This document shows, one piece after another, positions 2,958-21,345 of a stretch of 21,513 nt of DNA. The stretch comes from Oscillospiraceae bacterium (lineage in GTDB: Bacteria; Bacillota; Clostridia; Oscillospirales; Oscillospiraceae). The position numbers were made by a program, and so were the translations under genes. The notes below the pieces were generated by a model. It worked only from the letters and a program-made list of their open reading frames with translations. It ran no database searches and was not told where the DNA came from. The stretch's first letter is position 1. Every line of letters starts with the position of its first letter. The stretch covers positions 1 through 21,513 of the forward strand of contig JAFTGG010000172.1 of assembly GCA_017458025.1 (NCBI GenBank). Reading direction: 5' to 3'.

Positions 2958-2973
2958 AGCGCTCTCCTTATCT

Positions 2974-4203
2974 TTATCGTTCCGCGGCGGCCTCGCCGGC
3001 CGCCTTGCCCGTCGCCCACGCGATCTGTAAATTGAACCCGCCCGTGTAGGCGTCCACGTCCAGCACCTCGCCCGCGAAATACAGCCCCTCGACCAGCTTC
3101 GACGCCATAGTGCCCGGATCGACCTCGCCGACCTTGACGCCGCCGGAGGTGACGATCGCCTCCTCCACGCCGCGCGGGCCTGTGACCGCGATCTCAAACG
3201 CCTTGAGCGTTTTGATAAGAGCGCGGCGCTGTTCTCTCGTGACGGAATTTGCCTTTGTGTCCGCCGGAATCCCCGTGCGGCGCACCATAACAGGGATCAT
3301 GCTCCTCGGCACAAGGCCGCCGAGCACGTTGTCGAAATCCTGATTGCTCCGCTCGGCAAAATCGCGCAGCAGGCGCTCGTCCAGCTTTTTTTCGTCGAGC
3401 GCCGGCTTCAGGTCGACGATAAGCCGGTAGCGGTCTTTCTCCCAATCCCGCATGTGCGCGCTCGCGGACAATACCAGCGGGCCGCTGACGCCGAAGTGCG
3501 TGAACAGCAGCTCGCCCAATTCTTCATAGATGATCTTGTTCTTTTGGTTGCGTGCCGTCAGCGTCACATTGCGCAGCGACAGCCCCTGCATCGCGGCGCA
3601 GTCAGGATCGTCGCTTGCGAGCGGCACCAGCGAGCCGCGCGGCGGCACGACGGTGTGCCCAACCTGTTTGGCGAGCCGATATCCGTCGCCGGTGCTGCCC
3701 GTCGCGGGATAGGACACGCCGCCGGTGGCGACGACCACCGCGACGGCGGGGTAGCTCGCACGCCCGCTTTTGACGCCCGCGACACGCCCGTCTTTCAGGA
3801 CCAGCGCCGCCGCGCGGTCGGATACCAGCCTGACGCGCAGCCGCTTCAGCTCTTTTTCAAGCGCGCCGCTGACGTCGAACGCGCGGTCTGACACCGGATA
3901 GACGCGCTTGCCGCGCTCCACCTTCAGCGGGACGCCCAAGTCCTCAAAAAACGCCATAGTATCCCGCCCTTCCCAGCGGGAAAAAGCGCTGTAAAGGAAC
4001 TTTCCGTTACGCGGCACATGAGCAATCAGCTCGTCGCAAGCGCTGTCGTTCGTCACGTTGCAGCGGCCTTTTCCCGTGATGTTGAGCTTCTTGCCGAGGC
4101 GCTCGTTCGGCTCCAGCAGCGTCACGCCCGCGCCCTTGCGCGCGGCGCTGATCGCCGCCATCATGCCGGCGGCTCCGCCGCCGGCGACAACGACCTCACT
4201 CAT
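2974..4203 (-). CDS. BaiN/HI0933-family FAD flavoprotein
   Basis: A 409-residue NAD(P)/FAD-dependent oxidoreductase of the HI0933/YhiN/BaiN family. The N-terminal dinucleotide-binding loop is VVAGGGAAGMMAA, followed by the family signature NITGKGRCNVTN near residues 42-53. The C-terminus has the second FAD contact, GLYFAGEVLDVDAYTGGFNLQ. Some relatives are described as acting in bile-acid dehydroxylation (BaiN), but most members sit in housekeeping clusters like this one with no proven substrate, so I do not assign a reaction. The start overlaps the end of the MurR/RpiR gene by 8 bp, and cmk follows 16 bp downstream. Confidence 0.88.
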   Translation of the reverse strand: MSEVVVAGGGAAGMMAAISAARKGAGVTLLEPNERLGKKLNITGKGRCNVTNDSACDELIAHVPRNGKFLYSAFSRWEGRDTMAFFEDLGVPLKVERGKRVYPVSDRAFDVSGALEKELKRLRVRLVSDRAAALVLKDGRVAGVKSGRASYPAVAVVVATGGVSYPATGSTGDGYRLAKQVGHTVVPPRGSLVPLASDDPDCAAMQGLSLRNVTLTARNQKNKIIYEELGELLFTHFGVSGPLVLSASAHMRDWEKDRYRLIVDLKPALDEKKLDERLLRDFAERSNQDFDNVLGGLVPRSMIPVMVRRTGIPADTKANSVTREQRRALIKTLKAFEIAVTGPRGVEEAIVTSGGVKVGEVDPGTMASKLVEGLYFAGEVLDVDAYTGGFNLQIAWATGKAAGEAAAER

Positions 4204-5059
4204 CTTCCACCTTGCCGAAAATCGAGAACTTCTCCCAGATATGCTCCAGCTCGGAAAAGCTGGCGGAAACGTCAGTGCCTTTTTTGCGCGCGCACGCGAG
4301 GATCAGCGCGTTGAGCATGCTCATCGGCGCGGCGAGCGAGTCGACAAACGAGATCATCTCGTTGTGGACAAGCAGCGCGCTCTCCGCAACGCGGGCGAGC
4401 GGCGACATCTCGCTGTCGGTCAGGCCCACGATGGTCGCGCCGCGGTCGCGGGCGAATTGGATCGTCTTGAGCGCAAGCTCCGAGTAGCGCGGAAAACAGA
4501 TGGCGAACACCACGTCGCCGGGGCCGACGCGGAATATCTGGTCAAAGACCCCCGCGGCGCCGCCCTGCACGAAGGTCACGTTGTCGTAGATCAGGCGGAA
4601 ATAAAAATTTAAGTATCCCGCGAGGAACGAGGACGAGCGGAAGCCCACAATGTAAATGCGCTTCGCGGCCGTGATCGTGTCCACCACGCGCTCGAACTCC
4701 GCGGCGTCCGTCTGGTCGATCGCCATGCGGATCTTCTCCATGTCGCGGTGCAGCACGTTCGTCACAAGATCGCTGCCGCCCAGCACGCCGTCCGACGCCT
4801 GGATGCGCTGAATGGACGTCAGCTTGCCGCGGATCATCTCCTGCAGCGCGCGCTGCATGCTCGGATACCCGTCGTACCCCAGCTGCGTCGCGAAGCGGAC
4901 GACGGTCGACTCGCTCACCTGCACGGTTTTGCCGAGCTTGCTCGCGGTCATGAACGCCGCCTTGTCGTAGTTGTCCAAAATGTATCGCGCAATCAGCTTC
5001 TGACCCTTGGAAAAGCTGATCATGTTCTTTTCGATCGTATGTAATATGTTCTTCGCCAT
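4196..5059 (-). CDS. MurR/RpiR-family transcriptional regulator
   Basis: A 287-residue regulator with an N-terminal RpiR-type helix-turn-helix (about residues 1-77, with KLGKTVQVSESTVVRFATQLG as the recognition region) and a C-terminal SIS sugar-phosphate-binding domain (about 110-250, containing YIVGFRSSSFLAGYL). Such proteins usually sense phosphosugars and control amino-sugar or sugar catabolism. No sugar operon is adjacent; it sits between rluB and the baiN-type gene, so its target is probably elsewhere. No strong Shine-Dalgarno is seen before the ATG (only GGG about 8 nt upstream), so its expression may be modest or coupled to rluB, whose stop is 11 bp upstream. Confidence 0.9.
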   Translation of the reverse strand: MAKNILHTIEKNMISFSKGQKLIARYILDNYDKAAFMTASKLGKTVQVSESTVVRFATQLGYDGYPSMQRALQEMIRGKLTSIQRIQASDGVLGGSDLVTNVLHRDMEKIRMAIDQTDAAEFERVVDTITAAKRIYIVGFRSSSFLAGYLNFYFRLIYDNVTFVQGGAAGVFDQIFRVGPGDVVFAICFPRYSELALKTIQFARDRGATIVGLTDSEMSPLARVAESALLVHNEMISFVDSLAAPMSMLNALILACARKKGTDVSASFSELEHIWEKFSIFGKVEDE

Positions 5060-5070
5060 ACGGTATTTCC

Positions 5071-5778
5071 CTATCTTTCGTCAAATTCGCGGACTTCCTC
5101 CACGGTCAGATCCCGCCACTTGCCGCTGGGCAGGCCGCCGAGCGGCAGATGATGCTCCGCCACGCGCCGCAGCCGCTTGACGTGCAGCCCCACGGCGGCG
5201 CACATGCGCCGGATCTGGCGGTTTTTGCCCTCGTGAATAATCATTTCCAATTCTGCCGTCTCTTTGCCCTCGCGCAGCGTGCTCACGCGCGCGGGACGGA
5301 TCGGCTCGCCGTCGACCGCGGTCAACGCCGCGAGCCTTACCGCCGCGCCGCGCACGTCGCCGGCGACAGTCACGCGGTACGTTTTGTCGATTTCATAGCG
5401 CGGGTGAAGGATACGCTGCAGCCACGCGCCGTCGTTGGTCAACAGCAGCAGCCCCTCGGAATCGAGGTCGAGCCGCCCCACCGGCACAACGCGCGCGCCG
5501 CAGTCCGCGACCAGCTCCGCGACGGTGGGCCTGCCCTGTTCGTCGGACATCGTGCAGACATAGCCGCGCGGCTTATTGAGCATCAAATAGCGCTTTTGCT
5601 CCGGAACCGCCAGCGGCTTGCCGTCGACCAATATCTCGTCGGCGTCCGGATCGGCGCTTTGCCCCACCGAAGCGGCCGCGCCGTTGACGGTGACGCGTCC
5701 GGCTTCGATCCAAGCCTCCGCCGTCCGGCGGGAACACAGCCCCGAGGCGGCAATCAGTTTTTGTAACCGCTGCTCCAA
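5071..5778 (-). CDS. rluB: RluB/RsuA-family pseudouridine synthase
   Basis: A 235-residue rRNA pseudouridine synthase. An S4 RNA-binding domain occupies about residues 1-60 (LQKLIAASGLCSRRTAEAWI), followed by the catalytic domain with GRLDLDSEGLLLLTNDG, where Asp104 is the expected nucleophile. Family members of this type modify large-subunit rRNA (RluB) or 16S rRNA (RsuA); RluB is the usual assignment in this gene neighbourhood, but the sequence alone does not settle it. The start is TTG at 5776-5778, preceded by TAGGAG at 6 nt spacing, 9 bp after the dacF stop. Confidence 0.9.
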   Translation of the reverse strand: MEQRLQKLIAASGLCSRRTAEAWIEAGRVTVNGAAASVGQSADPDADEILVDGKPLAVPEQKRYLMLNKPRGYVCTMSDEQGRPTVAELVADCGARVVPVGRLDLDSEGLLLLTNDGAWLQRILHPRYEIDKTYRVTVAGDVRGAAVRLAALTAVDGEPIRPARVSTLREGKETAELEMIIHEGKNRQIRRMCAAVGLHVKRLRRVAEHHLPLGGLPSGKWRDLTVEEVREFDER

Positions 5779-5787
5779 TACTCTCTC

Positions 5788-6906
5788 CTATCGCATCGCG
5801 CCGAACAGGGCGCGGAGCCTTGCCGATACCGTCGGTCTTGCCGCGGCTTTTGCCGCCCCGACGCCGTTCGCCGCAACCAACGCGACGCGCCCGACCTCTG
5901 TGCCGTCCAGCAGAACAACCGCTTCTCCGGCGCGCTGTCCCGCGTTCACCGGCGCCTGCGCCGCGGCAGGCGTCTCCACGCGCAGCGTCAGCGCTTCGCC
6001 GTCCGCGACCGGATACGAAAAGCCCTCCGCCGCGACAAGCGCCACACAGGGCGCTTCTCCGCCGCGCACGGCCGCCATCGCGTACGTTTCTCCGCGCTCC
6101 GCGGCGCTCCCGCGCCGGTACGACGAGAAGCCGTATTCGTAGAGCGCCGTGTGGTCCTTCCAATCGTCGCCGTCGTGCAGCGTCACCGCGACGAGCCGCA
6201 GCCCCTCGCGCTCGGCGCAGGTCACGAGCGTCCGCCCCGCTTTGCCGGTGTAGCCGGTCTTGCCGCCGATGCAGCCGTCGAGCGAAGCGAGCAGCTTATT
6301 GTGGTTTGACAACGTTCGCGTTCCCGCCGTCGCCGTCGTCGCGGAGACGATCTGCGCGAACGCCGGCACGCGCATCGCGTACGCCATCAGCCGCGCCATG
6401 TCGGCGGCGCAGGAATAGTGGCCCGCCGCGTCAAGCCCGCTCGGGTTCGCAAACGCCGTATGCGTCATGCCGAGTTCGGCAGCCGTCTCGTTCATCCACT
6501 CCACGAACCGCTCCGTGCCGCCGCCGCAATAGTCCGCGATGCACTCCGCCGCGTCGTTGCCGGACGGCAGCATCAGCCCGTAGAGCAGCGCCTCCATCGT
6601 GAGCCGCTCGCCCTCGGCAAGATACATCGACGAGCCCTCTTTGAGATGCTCGCGCTTGACCGTCACGACGTCTGTGAGACGGCTGTGCTCCAGCGCGACC
6701 AGCGCGGTCATGATCTTCGTCGTGCTGGCGATGGGCAGCTCGCCCGTCTCGTTCTTCGCGAGCAGCATACGCCCGCTGTCCGCGTCCAGCAGCACATAGG
6801 CGGACGCCGAGACCGGCGGCGCGGTGGCAGACTGACAAGGGATACCGCTTGTCAGATAAAGCGGCGCAAGGAGGACTAAAATGAATCGGCGCGCGGCGCG
6901 CGGCAT
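5788..6906 (-). CDS. dacF: D-alanyl-D-alanine carboxypeptidase, DacF/DacB type
   Basis: A 372-residue class-C low-molecular-weight penicillin-binding protein that would trim the terminal D-Ala from peptidoglycan stem peptides outside the membrane. A signal peptide is visible (RR followed by a hydrophobic run, about residues 6-22, then small residues near 28-35). All three active-site motifs are present: STTK (Ser61, Lys64), SGN (115-117) and KTG (216-218). A C-terminal PBP5-like beta-rich domain follows. In spore formers the homologues at this locus are sporulation-linked and usually followed by spmA-spmB; here rluB follows directly. A perfect 10-bp inverted repeat touches the start codon and overlaps its ribosome binding site. 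Confidence 0.93.
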   Translation of the reverse strand: MPRAARRFILVLLAPLYLTSGIPCQSATAPPVSASAYVLLDADSGRMLLAKNETGELPIASTTKIMTALVALEHSRLTDVVTVKREHLKEGSSMYLAEGERLTMEALLYGLMLPSGNDAAECIADYCGGGTERFVEWMNETAAELGMTHTAFANPSGLDAAGHYSCAADMARLMAYAMRVPAFAQIVSATTATAGTRTLSNHNKLLASLDGCIGGKTGYTGKAGRTLVTCAEREGLRLVAVTLHDGDDWKDHTALYEYGFSSYRRGSAAERGETYAMAAVRGGEAPCVALVAAEGFSYPVADGEALTLRVETPAAAQAPVNAGQRAGEAVVLLDGTEVGRVALVAANGVGAAKAAARPTVSARLRALFGAMR

Positions 6907-6936
6907 AAGACCACTTCCTTAAACACAAGTGGTCTT
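6907..6936 (-). promoter_or_regulatory. Hairpin overlapping the dacF ribosome binding site
   Basis: A perfect inverted repeat with 10-bp arms (AAGACCACTT / AAGTGGTCTT) and a 10-nt loop ends at the base before the dacF ATG. The only Shine-Dalgarno-like sequence, AAGGAAG, is split between the loop and the 3' arm, so the folded RNA would hide it. There is no U-run after the hairpin, so it does not look like a terminator for gerW. A CATACTAA sequence at 6935-6942, reminiscent of a SigE -10 element, overlaps the 5' arm; a transcript starting from it would lack most of that arm. Confidence 0.55.
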
Positions 6937-6956
6937 AGTATGCCCAGACGCGCGCT

Positions 6957-7349
6957 TTAGTAGATGCCTTTTTCTTCTTTTTTCTTCGCGACGAAGTTCT
7001 CGACGCGGTCCATGACCTCGGGCACAAGATCGAGCACGCGGTCGATCGGGCCAACCGCCGGCAGCGCCACCGGCACGACGCGCGTAACGCCGTCCTTGAT
7101 GATGAGAAAGCTGACAGGATCGATCTTGACGCCCGCCGCGCCCGCGCCGCCGAACTTGTCGACAGTCCTGCCGTAGTCGCTGCCGCCCGTGCCGAAGCCG
7201 AAGCTGACGCGCGAGACGGGAATGACCGTCACGCCGTCGGGCGTGGTGATGGGCTCGCCGATAATGGAGTTGGAATCGACCATCTCGCGGATCTTGGTCA
7301 TCGTGGTCTCCATGAGGTCGCTCAACGGTTTCTTCTCGATAGTATCCAT
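6957..7349 (-). CDS. ytfJ: GerW/YtfJ-family sporulation protein
   Basis: A 130-residue protein of the spore YtfJ family. The conserved core is present: a start-proximal helix, then GEPITTPDGVTVIPVSRVSFGFGTGGSD, a glycine-rich middle, and VKIDPVSFLIIKDGVTRVVP. In Bacillus, GerW (YtfJ) is a forespore protein needed for proper germination; its biochemical activity is not known to me. AAGGAG stands 8 nt before the ATG. It is 14 bp downstream of the DUF2953 gene, which is also its neighbour (YtfI) in Bacillus, supporting both calls. Confidence 0.9.
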   Translation of the reverse strand: MDTIEKKPLSDLMETTMTKIREMVDSNSIIGEPITTPDGVTVIPVSRVSFGFGTGGSDYGRTVDKFGGAGAAGVKIDPVSFLIIKDGVTRVVPVALPAVGPIDRVLDLVPEVMDRVENFVAKKKEEKGIY

Positions 7350-7363
7350 GTTCGTCTCTCCTT

Positions 7364-8056
7364 CTATGCGATTTTATCTTCCGTATCGTTTTGCACTTTC
7401 TGTTCCGGTCCCTTGTGCGCCAATTGGTCGTGTTTCTGCGCCTTTTTGAAGCGCAGGAACCACTTTGCCATCGGAACGACCAGCGCGAACACGATCGCAA
7501 ACAGGTCGCATACGCGCAGCGAAAGCCCCACGCTGCCGAACGCCTCCGTGCCTTCCGCGTCGTAGTTCATGCGCAGGCGCAGCGACGGGTTCGGAATGTA
7601 GAACTTCTCCTCCGCCTTGGGCATCAGCGCGAACACCGCCGCATTCGCCATGCCGAAGCTCATCGCCACGTCCGCGGGATCGCGGCCGCCGAAGACGAGC
7701 GTCAGATCCAGCGGGTCGATACGCGTGCGCCGGCAGGCGCGCCGCACCATCGCGCCGAGCGCGGAAAGCGCGGTCTCAAGCAGATCGAGGATATCCTCAA
7801 GCGTCGGTTTCGGAATCGCGCGCTTTTTCTTCGGCTTTTCCTCTTTTTTCTCCTCCGGTTCCTCTGCCTTGGGCTTCTTTTCCTTCTTGGGCTTTTTCGG
7901 CTTTTTCTCTTTCTTCGGCAGAACGGTCAGCTTGATCGCGCCCACGCGCAGCCTGACGCGCAGCTCGTCCCCAAACGAAACGATCGCGCCGATACGCAGA
8001 AAACCGATCAAAAGGAAGACCAGCAGAATTATGCCGATGATCTTGAGCGCCGTCAA
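7364..8056 (-). CDS. DUF2953 membrane-anchored protein (YtfI-like)
   Basis: A 230-residue protein with one N-terminal membrane segment (about residues 4-27, including IIGIILLVFLLIGFL), then a strand-rich stretch and a long Lys/Glu/Pro-rich linker (about residues 48-80). The C-terminal half (RTRIDPLDLTLVFGGRDPADVAM and following) matches what I know of DUF2953. A second hydrophobic stretch (LFAIVFALVVPMAKWFL) lies near the C-terminus. No function is established; the pairing with GerW points to sporulation or the envelope. The start is TTG at 8054-8056, preceded by AGGGGGCGG. It lies between scpB (24 bp upstream) and gerW (14 bp downstream). Confidence 0.8.
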   Translation of the reverse strand: MTALKIIGIILLVFLLIGFLRIGAIVSFGDELRVRLRVGAIKLTVLPKKEKKPKKPKKEKKPKAEEPEEKKEEKPKKKRAIPKPTLEDILDLLETALSALGAMVRRACRRTRIDPLDLTLVFGGRDPADVAMSFGMANAAVFALMPKAEEKFYIPNPSLRLRMNYDAEGTEAFGSVGLSLRVCDLFAIVFALVVPMAKWFLRFKKAQKHDQLAHKGPEQKVQNDTEDKIA

Positions 8057-8080
8057 GCGACCGCCCCCTTTCGTGAAAGC

Positions 8081-8698
8081 TCAGTCTTCTTCCGGCAGCG
8101 CCGGCTCCGGCTCGGCCGGCCCGTCCGACATGTCGAACAGTCCGCCGTCGTCGCCGATGCGGAGCTGGCCCTCGGGCTCGATGCCCGGCATTTCCGGCAG
8201 CTCCTCAAGCGAGCTCAGATGGAACACGCGCAAAAATTCCTTCGTCGTACGGTACAGGCGCGGGCGTCCCGGCACCTGCAGGCGCCCGCACTCCTCAATG
8301 AGCTTGCGCTCCTGCAGCAGCCCCATCGTGTACGAGCTGTCCACGCCGCGCACTTGGTCGACGTAAGCGCGCGTGGTCGGCTGGTAGTAAGCGATGATGG
8401 TCAGCACCTCAAGCGCGGGCTGGCTCAGCTTCGCGCTCTTGCGGATCTCGAACGCCTTGCGGATCGCGTCCGCGTAGTCCGGCGCGGAGCAAAGCTGATA
8501 CGCGTCGTCCATGCGCACAAGACGGATACCGCGCCGCTCGTAGGCATAGTGATCCTCGAGTTTTCGCAGCAGCATCTCCGCCGTCTCTTTGTCCAAGTCG
8601 AGCGCGAGGCAGATGCGGTCGATGGCGACCGGCTCGCCGGAGGCAAACAAAATGCCCTCGATGGCGGCCTCAAGCTCTTTTAAATCCCATGTAGCCAA
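8081..8698 (-). CDS. scpB: Segregation and condensation protein B
   Basis: ScpB, a winged-helix partner of ScpA and SMC in the bacterial condensin that compacts and separates chromosomes. The family N-terminus is clear (LKELEAAIEGILFASGEPV), as is the region LEVLTIIAYYQPTTRAYVDQVRGVDS in the second winged helix, and a typical acidic tail follows. The start is uncertain: TTG at 8696-8698 is placed 10 nt after GGAGG, whereas an in-frame TTG at 8705-8707 lies only 1 nt from that sequence and is less likely. The length of 205 residues is usual. It follows scpA after 74 bp. Confidence 0.93.
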   Translation of the reverse strand: MATWDLKELEAAIEGILFASGEPVAIDRICLALDLDKETAEMLLRKLEDHYAYERRGIRLVRMDDAYQLCSAPDYADAIRKAFEIRKSAKLSQPALEVLTIIAYYQPTTRAYVDQVRGVDSSYTMGLLQERKLIEECGRLQVPGRPRLYRTTKEFLRVFHLSSLEELPEMPGIEPEGQLRIGDDGGLFDMSDGPAEPEPALPEED

Positions 8699-8772
8699 TG
8701 TGAACAATCCTCCGGATCATCGCCATAGTTCGCGGCTGCCGCGCCGGCGGCGAGCGCAATGGCGTCATTCTC

Positions 8773-9558
8773 TCACAGCGTCAGCGTTTCCGGCGCGTCC
8801 TTCTCATAATCCACCGTGCAGTCGGTATCCGAGCCCACGAGCCGAATGACCTTTTCGCGGCACAGCTCCAGCACCGCGATGAACGTCGCGACGATCTCGC
8901 TGCGCGAGCGGCTGCCGCGGAACAGCAGCAAAAACCGCGTAATGCCGAAGCTCTTGAGCCGGTCGACGATCTCGTGCGCCTTGTCCGTCACGGAGTACGG
9001 CTCGCGCCGCACGATCTCGTTAAACGCCGCCCGGTCCGGCGGCGCGAGCCGGTCGGCGCGGTCGGAAATTGCCTCCATCGCCTCGATGAGGTCGCCCTTT
9101 TCATGGTCGTATTCGTAGATCGCGCCGCGCTCCGTCGCCTCCGGCGGACGCGTCATCGTGTTGCGCCCGAACTCGCTGAGATTCGACATGGTCTCCGTCA
9201 GCATCTTGACGCGGAGATAGGTGTCCTTCTGCTGGCGCTCCTGCAGGGAGCGGATCAGCTCGTCCATCTCGCTCTGCGCCTCCTCGTCCTCAAGCGAGAG
9301 CAGCATGCGCGTTTTGATGTACATGAGATGCGCCGCCATCGTGATAAATTCGCTCGCGATTTCAAGATCGAGCCGCTTGCGCTGTTCGAGGTACGCGAGG
9401 TATTGGTCGAGGATCAACGCGATGGGGATATTCTGTATTTCGATCTTGTTTTTCGAGAGCAGAAACAAAATCAGGTCAAGAGGGCCTTCAAAGTCCTGCA
9501 AGGCCTCCTCGTTGCGCTCCTGCACGACGCTTTCGAGTTTAAAGATGGGATTGTCCAT
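8773..9558 (-). CDS. scpA: Segregation and condensation protein A
   Basis: ScpA, the kleisin subunit that bridges the SMC heads, 261 residues. The N-terminal kleisin motif is DFEGPLDLILFLLSKNKIEI, followed by the helical YLEQRKRLDLEIASEFITMAAHLMYIKTRMLL region and a C-terminal winged-helix segment. The ATG at 9556-9558 is preferred because GAGG stands 9 nt upstream; a TTG five codons earlier has no ribosome binding site. The reading frame begins just beyond the end of the M50 protease gene, 11 bp away, which implies co-transcription. Confidence 0.94.
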   Translation of the reverse strand: MDNPIFKLESVVQERNEEALQDFEGPLDLILFLLSKNKIEIQNIPIALILDQYLAYLEQRKRLDLEIASEFITMAAHLMYIKTRMLLSLEDEEAQSEMDELIRSLQERQQKDTYLRVKMLTETMSNLSEFGRNTMTRPPEATERGAIYEYDHEKGDLIEAMEAISDRADRLAPPDRAAFNEIVRREPYSVTDKAHEIVDRLKSFGITRFLLLFRGSRSRSEIVATFIAVLELCREKVIRLVGSDTDCTVDYEKDAPETLTL

Positions 9559-9569
9559 ACCAAAAATCC

Positions 9570-10241
9570 TCAATAGAAGATCAGATTTACAAACGCGTTG
9601 TACACAGCGCTGACCGCCCGGCCGAGAAAGCCGTCGAGCACGCCGAAGAAAATGAGCGCGTAAAGCACAAACACGCCGTAGCGCTCATAGCGCATCAGTT
9701 TCATGTACGCCGCGTCCGGCAGCACCGCGAACAGCACCTTGGAGCCGTCGAGCGGAGAAATCGGGAGCAGGTTGAACACGCCGAGGCCGACGTTCATCTG
9801 CGCGGCAATCATCAAAAACGCGTAGAACCAGCCCCAGGCCGCCGTATCCGGCGAGCGGTAAAGGATCGCGCGGCCGCCCAGCATCAGCACGAGCGCCAGC
9901 AGCAGATTGGACGCCGGTCCCGCCAACGCGGTCAGCGCCATGCCCTGCTTGGGGCGCTTGAAGTACCGCATATCCACCGGCACAGGCTTCGCCCAGCCGA
10001 AGCCGAGCGTCAGCATCGCCGCGAGCCCGAGCCAATCAATGTGGTGCAGCGGATTCAGGCTCAATCGGTGCTCACGCTTCGCCGTCGGGTCTCCAAGCGC
10101 GTAGGCGGCAAGCCCGTGGCAGGTCTCATGCACCGTCAGGCAAAGCAGCACCGCAACGAGCCGCAGCGAAGCGGAGAGCATCGCGGTCATATCCAATGAG
10201 GCAAAATAATCCCGAAAGGCGTTCAACGCAGTTTCTCCCAT
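9570..10241 (-). CDS. Site-2 protease family (M50) membrane protein
   Basis: A 223-residue membrane zinc metalloprotease-like protein. The zinc-binding HEXXH is HETCH at residues 38-42 within a membrane helix, and the third ligand motif is in LLPISPLDGSKV. About five to six hydrophobic segments are visible. It belongs to the short, PDZ-less group usually placed beside scpA-scpB in Firmicutes; the substrate is unknown. The start is uncertain: ATG at 10239-10241 or TTG at 10251-10253, neither with a clear ribosome binding site, and a TTG at 10224-10226 follows GGGAG. It is the first gene of the long minus-strand run, with a promoter about 45 bp upstream. Confidence 0.88.
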   Translation of the reverse strand: MGETALNAFRDYFASLDMTAMLSASLRLVAVLLCLTVHETCHGLAAYALGDPTAKREHRLSLNPLHHIDWLGLAAMLTLGFGWAKPVPVDMRYFKRPKQGMALTALAGPASNLLLALVLMLGGRAILYRSPDTAAWGWFYAFLMIAAQMNVGLGVFNLLPISPLDGSKVLFAVLPDAAYMKLMRYERYGVFVLYALIFFGVLDGFLGRAVSAVYNAFVNLIFY

Positions 10242-10265
10242 GCGTTTATGCAAAAATCAGAGAAT

Positions 10266-13406: not shown

Positions 13407-13435
13407 ATTCTATTTTCCCCCGCGGGGCGCGTCAA
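13407..13435 (-). promoter_or_regulatory. Sigma-A-type promoter for the P-loop ATPase-ymxH operon
   Basis: On the minus strand TTGACG (13430-13435), a 17-bp spacer and TAGAAT (13407-13412), about 33 bp before the ATG. It is divergent from the T-box promoter, about 60 bp away. Confidence 0.7.
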
Positions 13436-13494: not shown

Positions 13495-13524
13495 TTGACG
13501 AAACAGCGCTTTACCGCGTAAAAT
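13495..13524 (+). promoter_or_regulatory. Sigma-A-type promoter of the T-box operon
   Basis: TTGACG (13495-13500), an 18-bp spacer and TAAAAT (13519-13524). The predicted start near 13531 is about 12 nt before the base of T-box stem I. Confidence 0.72.
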
Positions 13525-13530
13525 CAATAT

Positions 13531-13797
13531 ACAACTTAGAAAGACTGTGACGAAGACGGTCGGAGGCAGAATTGGCCACAGAGAGCCGGCGTTTGCTGAG
13601 AGCCGGAGCAAGGCTGCTTCCAAGGACCCATCACTTCCGAGTCGGGGCGCTGAGCGGGCAACCGGGTAAGCTCCCTCGTGACGGCTGCGTGAAGGCCAGG
13701 GGCTTGTTGGAGCCTATGAGCGGCGCGAAAGCGCAATTTGAGTGGTACCGCGGGTGTAAGTTACGCTCGTCTCAAAGGAATTTGAGGCGAGCGTTTT
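13531..13797 (+). promoter_or_regulatory. T-box riboswitch, predicted tRNA-Ile specificity
   Basis: A T-box leader that reads the charge state of a tRNA. Stem I base is GACT (13543-13546) with AGTC (13640-13643), separated by a kink-turn-like GTGAC from helix GAAG (13552-13555)/CTTC (13634-13637). The upper stem is GGAGGCAG with CTGCTTCC, topped by CAGAGAGCCGG...GAGAGCCGG. By analogy with known T-boxes, the three bases before the conserved A (13633) next to that helix are the specifier: ATC at 13630-13632, an isoleucine codon. The T-box proper is TGGTACCGCG (13743-13752); its TGGT fits an A discriminator base, as in tRNA-Ile. TTTGAG (13737-13742) pairs with CTCAAA (13771-13776) as antiterminator. 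Class call is near certain; specificity is a hand-folded prediction. Confidence 0.93.
13764..13797 (+). terminator. T-box regulated terminator
   Basis: A 13-bp stem (one G-U pair) with a GGAA loop, followed by TTTT. Its 5' strand shares CTCAAA (13771-13776) with the antiterminator, so the two structures exclude each other. The gene start lies 34 bp downstream. Confidence 0.92.
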
Positions 13798-13830
13798 CGT
13801 ATGTCTCGCCAAGCACAGGAGGAACAAACT

Positions 13831-16122
13831 ATGGTAAGCACAACCACCAACGCCCTGCTCGAAGTCGCGGAACGTATCCGCGAGCTGAGGATCCTCAGCG
13901 GCTACACAGAGGAAGAAATGGCGCGCATGACCGGCGTCAGCCTCGAAGAATACCAAGTGTACGAGGCGGGCGAGACAGACCTACCGTTCACCTTTATCCA
14001 TAAGTGCGCGCTGACCTTTGGCGTGGAGATCATGGAGCTGATGGAGGGCGACACGCCGCGCCTGACCGGCTACGCCGTCACGCGCCGCGGCAAGGGCCAG
14101 CTCACCGCCAAGGAGCCTGGTATCGAGATCAACTCCATCGCTCCCCTCTTTAAAAACCGCAAGGCGGACCCCTATTGGGTGCGCTACGAGTACAGCGAGG
14201 CGGAGCAGCGTCAGCCGATCCATCAGGTCACGCACAAGGGGCAGGAGTTCGACCTGATCATCGAGGGCCAGATGAAGATCAAAATCGGCGAGCACACCGA
14301 GACGCTCGGCCCCGGCGACTGCATCTATTACGACTCCGGCAAGCCCCACGGCATCATCGCCACCGGCGGCGCGGACTGCACGTTCCTCGCGGTCATTCTC
14401 GCGGAGGAGGAGGTGCAGTGGGAGCACGGGCACATCGTCCAGCCCGACGAGGCGCTTGAGAAGAAGGCCGTTTCCCTGCTCAAGCCCGCGCCGGCCTATA
14501 TGCGGGATTTCGTCACCGCGGCCGAGGACGAGACCGGCTATCCCCTCTCCGTCGAGTTCAAGAACACCGAACGCTTCAACTTTGCGTTCGACGTGGTGGA
14601 CGCCATCGCGGAAAAAGAGCCGGAGCGCCTCGCGATGGTGCACCTCGACCGCGAGAAGCGCGAGCGCCGCTTCACGTTCGAGCAGATGAAGAAGATGAGC
14701 GCCCGCGCCGCCAACTACTTCCGCGCGCTGGGTATCCAGAAGGGCGACCGCGTGATGCTGGTCATGCGCCGCAATTGGGAGTTCTGGCCGGTCATCGTCG
14801 GCCTGCATAAGCTCGGCGCGATCGCTATCCCCGCCACCGACCAGCTGGTGGAAAAGGACTTCGAGTACCGCTTCCAGACCGCGGGCGTCAGCGCCGTCGT
14901 CTGCGCCGCCTACGGCAACTGCGCGGCGGAAGCGGAGAAGGCGATGGAGCGCTGCCCCACCGTCAGGCTGCGCGTCATCAGCGGCGGCACGCGCGAGGGC
15001 TGGCACAGCTTCGACGACGAGTATGAGATGTATTCGAGCCGCTTCCAGCGCACGGAGGAGAGCATCTGCGGCGACGACACGATGCTCATGCTCTTTTCCT
15101 CCGGCACCTCCGGCTATCCGAAAGCCGTCGACCACAGCTGCAAATATCCGCTCGGCCACTACGTCACGGCGCGCTATTGGCACTGCGTCGATCCCGACGG
15201 CGTCCACCTCACCATCTCCGACACCGGCTGGGGCAAGGCGCTCTGGGGCAAGCTGTACGGACAGTGGATGAACGGCTGCGCGACCTTTGTCTACGACTTC
15301 GACCGCTTCAGCGCGGACGATATCCTGCCGCTGTTCGCGAAATACAACATCACGACCTTCTGCGCGCCGCCGACGATGTACCGCTTCTTTATCAAGGAAG
15401 ACCTGAGCAAATACGACCTCTCCTCCATCAAGCACGCCAGCATTGCCGGCGAGGCGATGAACCCCGAGGTCTACGAGCAGTTTAAAAAGGTCACGGGCCT
15501 TTCCATCATGGAGGGCTTCGGCCAGACCGAGACGACGCTCGTTATCGGCAACTTTGTCGGCACGACGCCCAAGCCCGGCTCTATGGGCAAGCCGAACCCG
15601 ATGTACTCCGTCGAGCTCATGGGCGCGGACGGCAAGCCCGTCAGCACCGGCGACACCGGCGAGATTGTCGTCTACACCGGCGCGGGCAATCCCTGCGGCC
15701 TGTTCAAGGGCTACTATAACGCTCCGGAGGCGACCGCCGAGCATTGGCACGACGACTACTACCACACCGGCGATCTCGCGTGGCAGGACGAGGACGGCTA
15801 CTTCTGGTATGTCGGCCGCGCGGACGACGTCATCAAGTCCTCCGGCTACCGCATCGGGCCGTTTGAGATCGAAAGCGTTATCATGGAGCTGCCCTATGTT
15901 CTGGAATGTGGCGTCTGCGCCGCGCCGGACGAGATCCGCGGTCAGGTGGTCAAGGCGTGCATCACGCTGACCAAGGGCGCCGAGGGCACGGACGAGCTGA
16001 AAAAGGAGATCCAGGACTACGTCAAAAAGCGCACCGCGCCGTACAAGTACCCGCGCATTGTCGAATTTCGCGACGAGCTGCCCAAGACAATCAGCGGCAA
16101 AATCATCAGAAACAAGCTGTAA
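13831..16122 (+). CDS. XRE-HTH/cupin/acyl-CoA synthetase fusion
   Basis: A 763-residue three-part protein. Residues about 7-72 are an XRE-type helix-turn-helix; about 133-190 a cupin (HKGQEFDLIIEGQMKIKIG...GPGDCIYYDSGKPHG); about 246-763 an ANL-superfamily acyl-CoA synthetase close to the medium-chain (ACSM/MACS) type. Ligase motifs are intact: SSGTSGYPK (423-431), GFGQTETT (562-569), TGD (646-648) and catalytic Lys757 in SGKIIRNKL. It would form an acyl-CoA from a short or branched acid, ATP and CoA. From memory, an archaeal MACS prefers 2-methylbutyrate. ATG at 13831 follows AGGAGG; an ATG 30 bp earlier lies too near the terminator. It heads the operon with the oxidoreductase and aminotransferase. 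The regulator-enzyme fusion suggests self-control or ligand sensing. Confidence 0.93.
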   Translation: MVSTTTNALLEVAERIRELRILSGYTEEEMARMTGVSLEEYQVYEAGETDLPFTFIHKCALTFGVEIMELMEGDTPRLTGYAVTRRGKGQLTAKEPGIEINSIAPLFKNRKADPYWVRYEYSEAEQRQPIHQVTHKGQEFDLIIEGQMKIKIGEHTETLGPGDCIYYDSGKPHGIIATGGADCTFLAVILAEEEVQWEHGHIVQPDEALEKKAVSLLKPAPAYMRDFVTAAEDETGYPLSVEFKNTERFNFAFDVVDAIAEKEPERLAMVHLDREKRERRFTFEQMKKMSARAANYFRALGIQKGDRVMLVMRRNWEFWPVIVGLHKLGAIAIPATDQLVEKDFEYRFQTAGVSAVVCAAYGNCAAEAEKAMERCPTVRLRVISGGTREGWHSFDDEYEMYSSRFQRTEESICGDDTMLMLFSSGTSGYPKAVDHSCKYPLGHYVTARYWHCVDPDGVHLTISDTGWGKALWGKLYGQWMNGCATFVYDFDRFSADDILPLFAKYNITTFCAPPTMYRFFIKEDLSKYDLSSIKHASIAGEAMNPEVYEQFKKVTGLSIMEGFGQTETTLVIGNFVGTTPKPGSMGKPNPMYSVELMGADGKPVSTGDTGEIVVYTGAGNPCGLFKGYYNAPEATAEHWHDDYYHTGDLAWQDEDGYFWYVGRADDVIKSSGYRIGPFEIESVIMELPYVLECGVCAAPDEIRGQVVKACITLTKGAEGTDELKKEIQDYVKKRTAPYKYPRIVEFRDELPKTISGKIIRNKL

Positions 16123-16139
16123 AGATAGGAGAAACGACT

Positions 16140-16370
16140 ATGAACAGACGATTCCGGCTCTCGTTCAACGCCGACAAGTGCAAGGGCTGCGAGATTTGCG
16201 TCAGCGTGTGCCCGAAGCATATCCTTGACATGGACGCGGCGGTGAACGCCAAGGGCTACCACCCCGCCTGCTGCACGGACGAGACGCAGTGCGTCGGCTG
16301 CGCCAGCTGTGCGCTGATGTGTCCCGACTGCTGCATCAGCATCTATAAATTAGAGGAGGGCGAGGCATGA
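16140..16370 (+). CDS. vorD: 2-oxoacid:ferredoxin oxidoreductase, delta (ferredoxin) subunit
   Basis: A 76-residue 2x[4Fe-4S] ferredoxin-like subunit. Two cluster motifs are complete: CKGCEICVSVCP and CVGCASCALMCP. In VOR/KOR enzymes this subunit passes electrons between the TPP/FeS core and external ferredoxin. Its stop overlaps the start of the alpha subunit as ATGA. AGGAG lies 8 nt before the ATG, 17 bp after the synthetase gene. Confidence 0.92.
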   Translation: MNRRFRLSFNADKCKGCEICVSVCPKHILDMDAAVNAKGYHPACCTDETQCVGCASCALMCPDCCISIYKLEEGEA

Positions 16371-17445
16371 GCAAGATCCTGATGAAAGGCAACGAAGCCT
16401 TTGGCGAAGCCGCGATCCGCGCGGGCGTCAAGTGCTATTTCGGCTACCCGATCACGCCGCAGAACGAGGTCCCCGAGTACATGAGCCACGAGCTGCCCAA
16501 GGCGGGCGGCGCGTTCCTGCAGGCCGAGAGCGAGCTCGCCGCCGTCAACATGGCGTTCGGCGCGGCGGCCGCCGGCGGACGCGTGTTCATCTCCACCAGC
16601 TCCCCCGGCCTCGCGCTGATGCAGGAGGGTCTGGGCTTCATCTGCTCCACGGAGGTGCCGCTCGTCGCGCTGAACGTGTCGCGCGGCGGCCCCGGCGTCG
16701 GCGGTATCCAGCCCGGGCAGGCGGACTACATTCAGGTCACGCGCGGCGGCTACAACGGCGACGCGAAGATCCCCGTGTTCGCGCCCGCCGGCATTCAGGA
16801 GTGCGTCGACCTCATCTATGAGTGCTTCGACATCGCGGAAAAGTACCGCAACCCCGTGATGATCCTCGCGGACGCGATGATGGGCCAGATGATGGAGCCC
16901 GTCGAGCTGCCGCCCAAAAAGGAGATCACGCCGGTCGACAGGATTCCGCAGGTCAAGCCGTGGGCCATCACCGGCACCGGACAGCATGAGGGCAGAAACG
17001 TCATCTTCTCGCTGCGCATGCAGCCGGACGTGCTGGAGGCCCATGTTGAGCACATGTTCGAGAAATACGCGCGGGCGGAAAAAGAGCTGGTGCGCTACAA
17101 CACCATCGGGCTCGAGGACGCCGAGGTCGTGTTCGTCGCGTTCGGCACGATGTCCCGCCTCTGCGTCGAGACGATGGAGATTATGGCGGAGCGCGGCGTC
17201 AAGGCGGGCCTGATCCGGCCTATCAGCCTATGGCCCTTCCCCGAAAAGGCGTTCGACGAGATCGGCCCCGGGACGAAGCTCGTCATCTCCACAGAGCTGT
17301 CTATGGGCCAAATGATCTACGACGTCAAGGTCGCGGCGAAAAACCGTTGGCCCGTCGGACTGATCCACCGCACCGGCGGCATCGTGCCGTCGTCCATCGA
17401 GATTGCGGACCGCGCGATGAAGCTCTTGGAGGAGGTGAACGCCAG

Positions 17446-17449
<4 letters not shown>
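16367..17449 (+). CDS. vorB: 2-oxoacid:ferredoxin oxidoreductase, alpha subunit (VorB type)
   Basis: A 360-residue alpha subunit with the pyruvate:ferredoxin-oxidoreductase domains I and II. The N-terminal segment KGNEAFGEAAIRAGVKCYFGYPITPQNE and the QAESELAAVNMAFGAAAAG stretch (conserved Glu for TPP activation) are typical. The C-terminal domain contains GTMSRLCVETMEIMAERGVKAGLIRP. It resembles VorB, the 3-methyl-2-oxobutanoate type, more than pyruvate enzymes, which are longer, but 2-oxoglutarate or other branched substrates cannot be excluded. Start and stop overlap the neighbours, so the subunits are probably made together. Confidence 0.92.
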
Positions 17450-18189
<740 letters not shown>

Positions 18190-18190
18190 G

Positions 18191-18715
18191 ATGATTAAAA
18201 AACTCTTTTTCGCCGGCAGCGGCGGACAGGGCGCGCTCGCCATCGGACAGCTCATCGCGAAGGCGGCTATGGAGGAGGGCAACGAGGTCACCTACCTTCC
18301 CTCCTACGGCCCCGAGATGCGCGGCGGCACCGCCAACGCGACGGTCGTCATCTCCGACAAGCCCATATCCTGCCCGCTCATCAACGAGTGCGACGTGCTG
18401 GTGGTGATGAACCTCCCCAGCCTCACCCTCTTCGAGCCGATGGTCAATCCCAACGGGCTGCTGTTCATGAACAGCAGCCTCATCCCCGAAAAGGCGAAGC
18501 GCTCCGACATCAGGGTCGTCGAGGTCCCCGCCAACGACGAAGCCGAGAAGCTCGGCATCGAGCGCGCCGCGAACATGGTCATGCTCGGCGCGATTTTGAA
18601 AGAGACCGGCATCGTCGGGTTCGAGACCGTCTACAACGAGCTGGAGCACATGTTCTCCGGCCGCAAGGCGAGGTTCCTTGAACCGAACCGCAAGGCCGTC
18701 GACCTGTATTTGTAA
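18191..18715 (+). CDS. vorC: 2-oxoacid:ferredoxin oxidoreductase, gamma subunit
   Basis: A 174-residue gamma subunit. FAGSGGQGALAIGQLIAKAA and the conserved SYGPEMRGGTANATVVISD are hallmarks of the PFOR gamma domain, which closes the CoA-binding side of the complex. GGAGG lies 9 nt before the ATG, which follows the beta stop by one base. With the preceding three genes it completes a four-subunit enzyme in the order delta-alpha-beta-gamma. Confidence 0.92.
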   Translation: MIKKLFFAGSGGQGALAIGQLIAKAAMEEGNEVTYLPSYGPEMRGGTANATVVISDKPISCPLINECDVLVVMNLPSLTLFEPMVNPNGLLFMNSSLIPEKAKRSDIRVVEVPANDEAEKLGIERAANMVMLGAILKETGIVGFETVYNELEHMFSGRKARFLEPNRKAVDLYL

Positions 18716-18732
18716 GGAAGGAGTTCCGCGCT

Positions 18733-19803
18733 ATGCTGAATATTCGTATTGAAAGAACCACCGCGCCCAAGGCGAAGCCCGATATGTCGAGGGTCAGCTT
18801 CGGCACGACCTTCACCGACCACATGTTCCTCATGGACTATAACGACGCCGAGGGCTGGCACGACGCGCGCATTGTGCCCTACGGCCCGCTGCCCATCGAG
18901 CCGAGCGCCGCAGTGCTCAACTACGCCATGAACGTGTTTGAGGGGCTCAAAGCCTACCGCACGGACGAAAACAAGATCCAACTGTTCCGCCCCGACTGCA
19001 ACATCGAGCGCATGAACAACTCCGCCGACCGTCTGAGCCTGCCCCGTCTTGACCCTGACGACGCGCTGCAGGCCATCAAAACGCTCGTCCGGCTCGATCA
19101 GGATTGGGTGCCAAGCGGTGAGGGGGAATCCCTTTACATTCGCCCGATCGTCATGTCTGTCGAGCCTGACGTTTCGCTCCACTGCACGGAGCGCTGCCTG
19201 TTCGTCGTGATCCTCTCCCCCGTTGGCTGCTACTATAAGACCGGACTCAAGCCGGTGAGCATCGCCATCGAAACCGAGGACGCGCGCACCGTGCGCGGCG
19301 GCACGGGCTACGCCAAGTGCGGCGGCAACTACGCCGCGGCGCAGCGCGCGGGCATGCGCGCCGAGGCGCAGGGCATCTCGCAGGTGCTCTGGCTCGACGG
19401 CGCGACGAAGCAGTACATCGAGGAAGTCGGCAGCATGAACGTCATGTTCAAAATAAACGGCGAGATCGTCACCCCGACGCTTGAGACCGGCACGGTGCTG
19501 CCCGGCGTGACGCGCCGCTCAATCCTGCAGCTTCTGCGCGACAAGGGCGAAAAGGTCACGGAACGCCTGTTCTCCGTCGACGAGTTCGTCAGGGCTGTCG
19601 AGGCGGGCGCCATCGAAGAAGCGTGGGGCTGCGGCACCGCCGCCGTCGTCTCGCCCATCGGCAAGCTCATCTACAACGGCAAGGAGTACCAAATCGGCGA
19701 CGGCAGCATCGGAACGCTGACGCAGGCGCTCTACGACGAGCTGACCGGTATCCAGTGGGGCCGCATCGCCGACGCGCACGGTTGGATCACGCCCGTTTGC
19801 TGA
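18733..19803 (+). CDS. ilvE: Branched-chain amino acid aminotransferase
   Basis: A 356-residue class IV PLP aminotransferase of the longer BCAT form. The PLP lysine is Lys195 in GTGYAKCGGNYAAA; EEVGSMNVMFKI and the late GTAAVVSPIG motif are also present, as is NVFEGLKAYR near the N-terminus. It exchanges the amino group of glutamate with Ile, Leu or Val 2-oxoacids. AAGGAG stands 9 nt before the ATG, 17 bp after the gamma subunit, with no terminator between, so it is the last gene of the T-box operon. This position makes a 2-oxoacid-to-amino-acid step the logical final product step. Confidence 0.95.
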   Translation: MLNIRIERTTAPKAKPDMSRVSFGTTFTDHMFLMDYNDAEGWHDARIVPYGPLPIEPSAAVLNYAMNVFEGLKAYRTDENKIQLFRPDCNIERMNNSADRLSLPRLDPDDALQAIKTLVRLDQDWVPSGEGESLYIRPIVMSVEPDVSLHCTERCLFVVILSPVGCYYKTGLKPVSIAIETEDARTVRGGTGYAKCGGNYAAAQRAGMRAEAQGISQVLWLDGATKQYIEEVGSMNVMFKINGEIVTPTLETGTVLPGVTRRSILQLLRDKGEKVTERLFSVDEFVRAVEAGAIEEAWGCGTAAVVSPIGKLIYNGKEYQIGDGSIGTLTQALYDELTGIQWGRIADAHGWITPVC

Positions 19804-19935: not shown

Positions 19936-20706
19936 ATATTAGGCAAGGTTGAAATATGCGGCGTCAACACGTCGAAGCTTCCGGTTTTGTCCGCCTCCGA
20001 GATGGACGCTCTGTTCCTGCGCGTCAAAAGCGGCGACGTACAGGCGCGCGAGACGCTGGTCGAGGGCAACCTGCGGTTGGTGCTCTCCGTGATCCAACGC
20101 TTCGCGGGGCGCGGCGAGAATGCGGACGACCTGTTTCAGGTCGGCTGCGTGGGACTCATCAAGGCGATTGATAACTTTGACGTCAGCCAGAACGTCCGGT
20201 TTTCGACCTATGGCGTGCCGATGATTATCGGGGAAATCCGCCGGTACCTCCGCGACAACAGCTCGATCCGCGTCAGCCGCAGCATGCGAGACACGGCGTA
20301 CCGCATCCTCCAAGCCCGTGAAAAGCTCCAGCGCGAGTCACAGCGCGAACCGACGGTGGAGCAAATCGCAAAGGAGCTGGATATCCCGCGCGAGGAGGTC
20401 GTCATGGCGATGGACGCGGTAGTGGACCCCGTGTCGCTCTCGGAGCCCATCTACTCCGACGGCGGCGACACGGTGACGGTGATGGATCAAGTGCGCGACA
20501 CGAAAAACACCGACGAGGACTGGCTGGAGCACATCGCGCTCAAGGACGCGATGGCGCGGCTGACGCCCCGCGAGCGGCGGATTCTGGCGCTGCGCTTCTC
20601 CGACGGCAAGACGCAGATGGAGGTCAGCGATGAAATCGGCATCTCGCAGGCGCAGGTCTCGCGGCTGGAGAAAAACGCCATCAAAAGCATCAAGAAGCAG
20701 ATATAG
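19936..20706 (+). CDS. sigG: Sporulation sigma factor SigG (start codon non-canonical)
   Basis: Late forespore sigma factor. Region 2 (DDLFQVGCVGLIKAIDNFD), MIIGEIRRYLRDN, PVSLSEPIYSDGGD and region 4 (GKTQMEVSDEIGISQAQVSRLEK) match SigG closely. The SigG-specific N-terminus KVEICGVNTSKLPVL is encoded in frame at 19945-19989, yet no ATG, GTG or TTG lies in frame between the upstream stop (19903-19905) and TTG at 19987. The feature is drawn from ATA at 19936, 10 nt after GGGAG, giving 256 residues (Bacillus SigG has about 260). From TTG 19987 the protein would be 239 residues and lose that motif. Possibilities: an AUA start, a frameshift from ATG 19926, or a sequence error. Identity is secure; the start is not. 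Confidence 0.9.
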   Translation: MLGKVEICGVNTSKLPVLSASEMDALFLRVKSGDVQARETLVEGNLRLVLSVIQRFAGRGENADDLFQVGCVGLIKAIDNFDVSQNVRFSTYGVPMIIGEIRRYLRDNSSIRVSRSMRDTAYRILQAREKLQRESQREPTVEQIAKELDIPREEVVMAMDAVVDPVSLSEPIYSDGGDTVTVMDQVRDTKNTDEDWLEHIALKDAMARLTPRERRILALRFSDGKTQMEVSDEIGISQAQVSRLEKNAIKSIKKQI

Positions 20707-20742: not shown

Positions 20743-21345
20743 TTACAGCTCGCGCTTTTTGTACAGCGCGATCGACAGCCGCCACGAGAGAACGTAGAGC
20801 AGCAGCGGGAACACGCAAAGCGCCCAGTTGGGCACGGGAAACGCGTCGAACCGGCTCGTCGGGCGGTCGGCCACATAGGCGATCCCCACTCCGCCGAAGA
20901 CCGCGCCGGCAAACACGAGATAGGCGATCCGTCCTTTTTCCGCGCCGAACCGGAACAGGATCGGCAGCATGATCGCGGAAGCCAGCAGCCCGAGGGAGAT
21001 CGCCACCGTGACCGCGTCGCCCAGCCCCTCCCGATCGAAGGCGAGGTACAGAACCGCCTGCAGCGCGAGATAGAGCGCCGTGCAGATCGCGCCGTAGAGA
21101 TATTTCTCCGTCACATACTGCGCGCGGGAGACGGGAAACGCCTGCGCGTAGACCGTCCATTTCTCCCGGTCGTCGTAGGAATAGAGCGTCACCGGCATCA
21201 TTGCGACCATGACGCTCGGGTATGCCATAAAAAAGCTGTTTTGCGGGTTGAACACGGACGTGGCCAAAAACAAGGCGATCCCGATCAAATAGATCCGCAG
21301 ATATTTGACCGTCAGATACCAATCTTTCAGCAAAAGCCCTTTCAT
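20743..21345 (-). CDS. ABC-2 type transporter permease
   Basis: A 200-residue membrane protein with about six hydrophobic segments. The N-terminus MKGLLLKDWYLTVKYLRIY is the usual opening of ABC-2 permeases paired with a separate ATPase, as is SYDDREKWTVYAQAFPVSRAQYV (the amphipathic loop between helices 2 and 3). The substrate is unknown; such two-gene exporters often handle peptides or antibiotics. Its start overlaps the ATPase stop as ATGA, and GGGGGAG lies within the end of that gene. Confidence 0.85.
   Translation of the reverse strand: MKGLLLKDWYLTVKYLRIYLIGIALFLATSVFNPQNSFFMAYPSVMVAMMPVTLYSYDDREKWTVYAQAFPVSRAQYVTEKYLYGAICTALYLALQAVLYLAFDREGLGDAVTVAISLGLLASAIMLPILFRFGAEKGRIAYLVFAGAVFGGVGIAYVADRPTSRFDAFPVPNWALCVFPLLLYVLSWRLSIALYKKREL

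Follow-up and report, generated by a model that had tools for sequence, protein, structure and literature searches.

A predicted isoleucine T-box operon for the reductive carboxylation of 2-methylbutyrate, with an acyl-CoA synthetase fused to an HTH-cupin module

Within the window, meaning the whole stretch of 21,513 nucleotides that was analysed and which comes from a relative of rumen and gut Clostridia, a T-box leader with an isoleucine specifier precedes six genes which are suggested to form an operon for the reductive carboxylation of exogenous 2-methylbutyrate to isoleucine. A probability of roughly 0.83 was assigned to this reading. The leader and its specifier, the gene set, their conservation, the pairing of paralogues with specifiers in related genomes and the failure to find ilvB and ilvC in the source genome were computed directly; substrate, direction and induction are what we infer from these sequences. 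According to the proposed mechanism, uncharged tRNA-Ile would pair with the AUC codon in Stem I and with the UGGU of the antiterminator, and read-through of the terminator would be restricted to times of isoleucine shortage. The synthetase would then convert 2-methylbutyrate into 2-methylbutyryl-CoA, with ATP going to AMP, and VorDBAC would join this thioester with CO2 at the expense of reduced ferredoxin, yielding 3-methyl-2-oxopentanoate, which IlvE would finally transaminate to isoleucine. The features are as follows, given as positions of the window and strand.

13495..13524 (+): sigma-70-like promoter TTGACG-18-TAAAAT, 10 of 12 consensus matches, by consensus match only
13538..13777 (+): T-box leader (RF00230), covariance model 73.5 bits, E 3.5e-16, also recovered in the genome-wide search
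13543..13643 (+): T-box Stem I with three helices, in which 97.5% of alignment cells pair (82.4% for shuffled sequences)
13630..13632 (+): specifier codon ATC (Ile), in the specifier columns of the RF00230 alignment, register from covariation, followed 3' by A and then the CUUC strand
13743..13752 (+): T-box motif TGGTACCGCG with the antiterminator bulge UGGU, from the RF00230 alignment
13763..13794 (+): intrinsic terminator with a 14 bp stem, from a hairpin search
13831..16122 (+): HTH-cupin-acyl-CoA synthetase fusion, 763 aa, with HTH_3, Cupin_2, AMP-binding and AMP-binding_C; nearest PDB sequence 3etc
13876..14040 (+): HTH_3 domain, residues 16-70, 31.8 bits over a Pfam cut-off of 23
14224..14394 (+): Cupin_2 domain, residues 132-188, 46.7 bits over a Pfam cut-off of 27.2, beta strands in the model
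15232..15246 (+): synthetase residues 468-472 (GKALW), of which 468 and 471 differ by specifier class and Trp472 aligns with the pocket residue Trp259 of MacsMa
16140..16370 (+): vorD, 4Fe-4S ferredoxin subunit, Fer4 36.7 bits over a cut-off of 21.1
16367..17449 (+): vorB, 2-oxoacid:ferredoxin oxidoreductase alpha subunit, NF005507 457.3 bits over a cut-off of 399
17446..18189 (+): vorA, TPP-binding beta subunit, TPP_enzyme_C, no NCBIfam cut-off reached (103.3 of 261.9 bits)
18191..18715 (+): vorC, gamma subunit, TIGR02175 87.4 bits over a cut-off of 81.1
18733..19803 (+): ilvE type II, branched-chain aminotransferase, TIGR01123 367.1 bits over 250.05 and NF009897 448.7 over 307

The score of the operon leader lies below the RF00230 gathering score of 93 (cmscan), and a default Rfam scan of the window returned no T-box, as the leader emerges only below that score; among 24 leaders of related genes, seven reach it (93.2 to 107.2 bits). 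Four T-boxes were found in the source genome by the genome-wide search, the operon leader being one of them. As single-sequence folding of Stem I was no better than that of shuffles (z -0.48), covariation was used instead, based on an alignment of 37 related leaders (22 Ile, 14 Val and 1 Leu; L095, L096 and L121 of the 40 picked were excluded, their 5' ends not being cleanly cut). Whereas 97.5% of the cells of this alignment pair in the three named helices, sliding the helices by 1 to 3 columns leaves at most 51.7% paired. The helix which starts one base 3' of the specifier is paired to 100% and shows two-sided changes in all four of its pairs across the 37 sequences; in the base helix, 9 of the 37 rows fail to pair columns 7 and 106. 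The specifier reading frame of the operon leader is thus fixed by Stem I covariation. Downstream, the terminator hairpin region folds with a z of -3.60, and the hairpin search found one terminator as compared to 0.8 expected in shuffles. In the RF00230 alignment the antiterminator would need the same 5' strand as the terminator, whose formation would therefore exclude it. All 115 parsed leaders contain UGGU, and 114 of them also have a terminator-like hairpin. Taken as a T-box, the operon leader combines a significant covariance match, a Stem I with the specifier in an internal loop, and the T-box motif with terminator and antiterminator. Promoter-like sites of the quality of that at 13495-13524 number three within 601 bases on both strands, as compared to 0.2 expected.

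The earlier note, made from the letters of this DNA, had described a promoter, a T-box with ATC as specifier and a closely spaced set of synthetase, four-subunit oxidoreductase and aminotransferase genes, and had recommended a covariance model for checking the specifier. This model located the leader and placed ATC in the specifier columns, the promoter was recovered as a consensus match, and the six genes 3' of the leader were found to follow one another closely, none of the overlaps or gaps exceeding 17 bases. The start of the synthetase is assigned to 13831, behind an AGGAGG, where the mechanical list of open reading frames had 13801. The oxidoreductase is of the VOR type, as it comprises four subunits with the alpha subunit above the VorB cut-off. 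For the synthetase the best NCBIfam match is MbcS (NF047394), although with 442.3 bits the curated score of 850 is missed. MbcS is an acyl-CoA synthetase for 2-methylbutyrate and isobutyrate (PMC10026030); there one enzyme serves both acids, whereas here the acids seem to be split between paralogues.

A closer counterpart of the synthetase is MacsMa of Methanosarcina acetivorans (3etc), with which it shares 50-51% identity over the synthetase part, the AMP-binding and AMP-binding_C domains and a Gly at residue 468, and from which it differs by the HTH-cupin module, absent in MacsMa, and by the residue at 471, where MacsMa has Val, not Leu. In PMC10455477, 2-methylbutyrate is given as the preferred substrate of MacsMa and Trp259 as critical for substrate binding. 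In the alignment, Trp472 of the synthetase corresponds to position 282 of the 3etc chain and hence to Trp259 with an offset of 23, an offset with which Gly459, Tyr460 and Lys461, as numbered in the same paper, fall on a Gly-Tyr-Lys of the 3etc chain. The synthetase therefore possesses a counterpart of the pocket tryptophan, and the two positions which sort by specifier class, 468 and 471, lie four and one residues before it.

This sorting became apparent from a comparison of relatives. Of 60 relatives searched for the protein, 55 gave a match at E <= 0.001, many of these matches being only distantly related AMP-binding proteins. Within the order, 157 of 396 genomes matched at E <= 1e-200, with at most two candidates scored per genome. 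From these, 100 regions were fetched, with preference for tandem pairs and, apart from these, mostly a single region per genus, which makes the sample non-random; loci L005-L034 and L055-L079, which are shorter repeats of other matches, were excluded from the specifier count. Together with the window, these regions hold 138 HTH-cupin-synthetase genes, 135 of which read for at least 600 aa without a stop. Specifiers were counted with a scored parser, other parsers being ambiguous (e.g., CAT versus ATC in CCCATCCCTTCC), and this count gave ATC for 77, GTA for 32, GTC for 5 and CTC for 1 of the genes, i.e., 77 Ile, 37 Val and 1 Leu; the remaining 23, with none or a misparse, consist of 19 without a T-box core, two unresolved cases and two odd codons. 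For both genes of L091 the scored parser gives TCT and GAG, which by eye read as ATC and GTA. Among the 37 two-copy loci an Ile and a Val leader are paired in 32 (28 ATC followed by GTA, 4 ATC followed by GTC); three have ATC followed by a copy without own leader, one is L091 and one shows none. The sole CUC (Leu) leader was observed at L038 around position 13421 (-), where it stands before a synthetase with Ala468 and Met471, ahead of vorDBAC and ilvE; the Leu case is hence one of a single gene, whose synthetase match breaks frame near the C-terminus. According to record titles, 43 of the best 80 out of at least 595 named records come from ruminants and 6 from other animal guts, 31 bearing no host word.

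Within 9 kb downstream and inside the fetched stretch, VorB follows 42 of 77 ATC genes and 30 of 37 Val genes, and IlvE follows 32 of 77 and 25 of 37, respectively. The 35 of 77 ATC genes without VorB in this range count against the 2-methylbutyrate reading and, together with the 79 of 286 non-carriers of the fused gene which also lack ilvC (see below), are the reason why the confidence in the 2-methylbutyrate route was tempered to the value given above.

In the first sample, all 76 Ile rows have Gly at position 468 and all 36 Val rows have Ala there; at position 471, Leu occurs in 75 of the 76 Ile rows, and the 36 Val rows have Met, Ala or Ser throughout. A second sample was drawn from named records (104 proteins of 118 genes, reduced to 96 by removal of proteins identical to ones already used) and gave Gly468 in 58 of 59 Ile rows and Ala468 in 28 of 28 Val rows, the lone exception being L199, an Ile-leader enzyme with Ala; Leu471 was present in 58 of 59 Ile rows and also in 2 of 27 GTA rows, and Trp472 in 96 of 96 rows. 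In a FastTree phylogeny built with an outgroup and 135 proteins (three of the 138, under 600 aa, were excluded), the Ile/Val/Leu label changes twice, which is the minimum for three states (L091 read by eye), and 17 times when genes lacking a parsed leader are treated as a fourth class. One clade of 43 rows (37 Val, 1 Leu and 5 without a parsed leader; support 100) holds all Val rows and the single Leu row, its sister comprises 55 rows (49 Ile and 6 without a parsed leader; support 98), and as further Ile rows lie deeper in the tree the Ile specifier looks ancestral. The Gly-to-Ala exchange and the change of specifier fall on one branch and are one event, not many; since paralogue and label go together, the row counts are not independent trials. 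Positions 58, 95 and 115 of the HTH-cupin part likewise sort by specifier class, and the sorting may therefore reflect ancestry as much as function.

The occurrence of a twin gene under a valine-tRNA leader in relatives nevertheless suggests that the RNA switch labels the acid of each enzyme, and by the same logic as applied to the Ile-leader enzyme, the Val-leader twin would take isobutyrate. Going further, it is tentatively proposed, with less than even confidence, that the specifier serves as a readable substrate label. Here, the T-box-synthetase unit would have been duplicated and its specifier switched from AUC to GUA or GUC, and once to CUC, with the Gly468-to-Ala exchange filling the pocket by about one methyl group and turning a 2-methylbutyrate enzyme into an isobutyrate enzyme. 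The HTH-cupin module would in addition enable each synthetase to regulate itself in response to the acid or the acyl-adenylate, and the operon would obey two signals, the missing amino acid via RNA and the present precursor acid via protein.

This module probably represents a second, ligand-sensing control. The structure model of the fusion (mean pLDDT 83.0, pTM 0.65) consists of five helices, a strand-rich region and a synthetase fold, with residues 258-757 forming the AMP-binding plus C-terminal domain; the VIA-align and Foldseek matches listed fall on the synthetase domain and are uninformative on the HTH-cupin part. When residues 1-250 were used as a database query, 1690 proteins were obtained at E <= 0.001, and as the search admitted only 0.55 to 1.75 times the query length, unfused proteins could not appear among them. 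Named relatives among the best 120 of the 1690 are called 'AMP-binding protein', 'cupin domain-containing protein' or 'acetyl-CoA synthetase', and in consequence pathway tools may well call these genomes isoleucine auxotrophs. BirA is an HTH joined to an adenylate-forming ligase and PuuR an HTH_3 joined to a cupin. The likeness to BirA is one of architecture, i.e., of an HTH with an adenylate-forming enzyme, and that to PuuR lies in the combination of HTH_3 with Cupin_2, both of which exceed their Pfam cut-offs, whereas the PuuR profile itself remains below its own (20.6 of 211 bits). For FadD1 of Pseudomonas aeruginosa, an acyl-CoA synthetase said to act as a transcriptional regulator, PMC12754631 describes DNA binding via the AMP-binding domain (leucine zipper); in the fusion, in contrast, a separate HTH-cupin module is the putative DNA-binding part.

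Adjacent but unfused pairs of HTH-cupin and synthetase genes occur in 9 of the 60 relatives' genomes (among the matches listed), one of which has a T-box, with the specifier AUC (L244), while in the fetched regions of the other eight no T-box was found. In L246, L247 and L252, the separate HTH-cupin and synthetase genes stand directly behind vorDBAC with no T-box detected, a combination which may constitute a catabolic sister system. With at least three such unfused pairs next to a VOR and no T-box detected, the direction of the reaction cannot be read from the enzyme set alone.

Weighing of alternative routes depends on the classical branched-chain genes, which were sought in the source genome (89% complete, 282 contigs). 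No match was found there for ilvC or leuC and nothing over cut-off for ilvB, for which two matches of about 23 bits were obtained; an ilvD-like dehydratase scores 584.7 of 618 bits, just under its cut-off, and lies on contig C14 of this genome (L163, 2449-4038). The sister genome G004, rated 100% complete, possesses the operon (L053), with ilvC and ilvD not found and ilvB matches below cut-off. Against the main reading count the incompleteness of the source genome, the genomes used being mostly drafts, the ilvD-like protein and the presence of ilvB, ilvC and ilvD in the genus-mates G008 and G010, the fusion being full-length in G008 and a fragment at a contig edge in G010. Across the 396 genomes of the order, ilvC is matched in 29 of 110 carriers (genomes with the fused gene, best E <= 1e-280) versus 207 of 286 non-carriers, counts which ignore kinship, and among carriers in 25 of 66 one-copy and 4 of 44 two-copy genomes; as the remaining 79 non-carriers are also without ilvC, its loss alone does not prove the 2-methylbutyrate route. 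These data bear on a route starting from propionate, by which the synthetase would form propionyl-CoA, the oxidoreductase would carboxylate it to 2-oxobutyrate and the acetohydroxyacid enzymes would finish isoleucine. Such use of an oxidoreductase is known from the literature, the route would likewise be isoleucine-controlled, and an IlvD-like protein is present below cut-off. It is, however, judged highly improbable because it needs ilvB and ilvC in addition to ilvD, with the first two not found over cut-off in the source genome and the latter two not found in the near-complete sister, and because it leaves the twins with Val and Leu specifiers unexplained. A start from 2-methylbutyrate is favoured, since it agrees with the nearest enzyme as well as with the specifier and the Val twin.

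A purely catabolic reading, in which IlvE and the VOR would act oxidatively on isoleucine and form 2-methylbutyryl-CoA, to reduce ferredoxin or to gain energy, was set aside on account of the T-box leader, which would turn degradation on during isoleucine shortage; an AMP-forming synthetase, moreover, by its family suits activation and not energy recovery. Even though VOR enzymes are usually described as oxidative and a VOR accompanies HTH-cupin and synthetase genes without detectable T-box in the three loci named above, this direction is considered highly improbable. Scarcely more can be said for a role in membrane lipid synthesis, to which the synthetase would contribute branched acyl-CoA primers in the manner of MbcS in Staphylococcus. 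The products of MbcS prime branched-chain fatty acids (PMC10026030), and MbcS is the best NCBIfam match of the synthetase. The missed MbcS cut-off argues against such a role, VOR and IlvE would be superfluous for lipid priming, and a T-box for Ile or Val is in keeping with the provision of amino acids; very little probability is thus left to this function. With respect to the 2-methylbutyrate route, the biosynthetic direction proposed in the earlier note is favoured by the comparative evidence, and of the classical genes whose absence it had named as a check, ilvC was not found over cut-off and ilvD only below cut-off; ilvB, too, was not found over cut-off, and leuC was without a match. Its substrate assignment is retained with 2-methylbutyrate as the most likely acid, while the addition 'perhaps also isobutyrate or isovalerate' is narrowed by the separate Val-leader paralogues and the one Leu-leader paralogue of relatives; neither the HTH-cupin fusion nor the paralogue system had been recognised in it.

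The need of rumen bacteria for branched volatile acids is long established, and the reductive carboxylation of 2-methylbutyrate to isoleucine is known from rumen ruminococci. For Methanobrevibacter ruminantium, too, this carboxylation was described as the probable isoleucine route (PMC2812497). The acid, the end product and the anaerobic carboxylation are common to the latter system and the operon, which differs by the arrangement in one T-box operon, by the regulator-fused synthetase and by the Val- and Leu-leader twins of relatives. With T-box leaders of amino-acid operons it shares Stem I, specifier, T-box motif and terminator. The carboxylation chemistry is hence already known, whereas among the matches listed from the openly licensed PMC literature neither a T-box before a volatile-acid synthetase nor the pairing of specifier and pocket nor an HTH-cupin-synthetase fusion was found. 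The operon is a candidate gene set for the branched-acid need of rumen bacteria with a built-in label of the acid-to-amino-acid pairing, and the specifier would allow substrate prediction from DNA alone.

The other three T-boxes of the source genome precede different genes. On contig C62 (L001, L160), a T-box reading CUG (Leu, by eye) stands before a LeuA-like ORF (297.6 of 532 bits) in this genome in which leuC was not found, followed by an acyl-CoA ligase of 823 aa, which is extended at its N-terminus, and by an ORF which by eye reads like pyruvate:ferredoxin oxidoreductase. On contig C246 (L161) the T-box precedes a TrpX-like ABC substrate-binding protein (197 of 390 bits), and on C122 (L162) it precedes an ORF that by eye resembles alaS. 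In the window itself, a housekeeping cluster occupies 1675-10253 (-) and encodes an acyltransferase, cytidylate kinase, an HI0933-like protein, an RpiR-type regulator, a pseudouridine synthase, D-Ala-D-Ala carboxypeptidase, YtfJ, ScpB, ScpA and an M50 peptidase. Beside the operon lie a sigma-70 family factor with regions 2, 3 and 4 at 19987-20703 (+) and an ABC-2 membrane protein at 20743-21345 (-).
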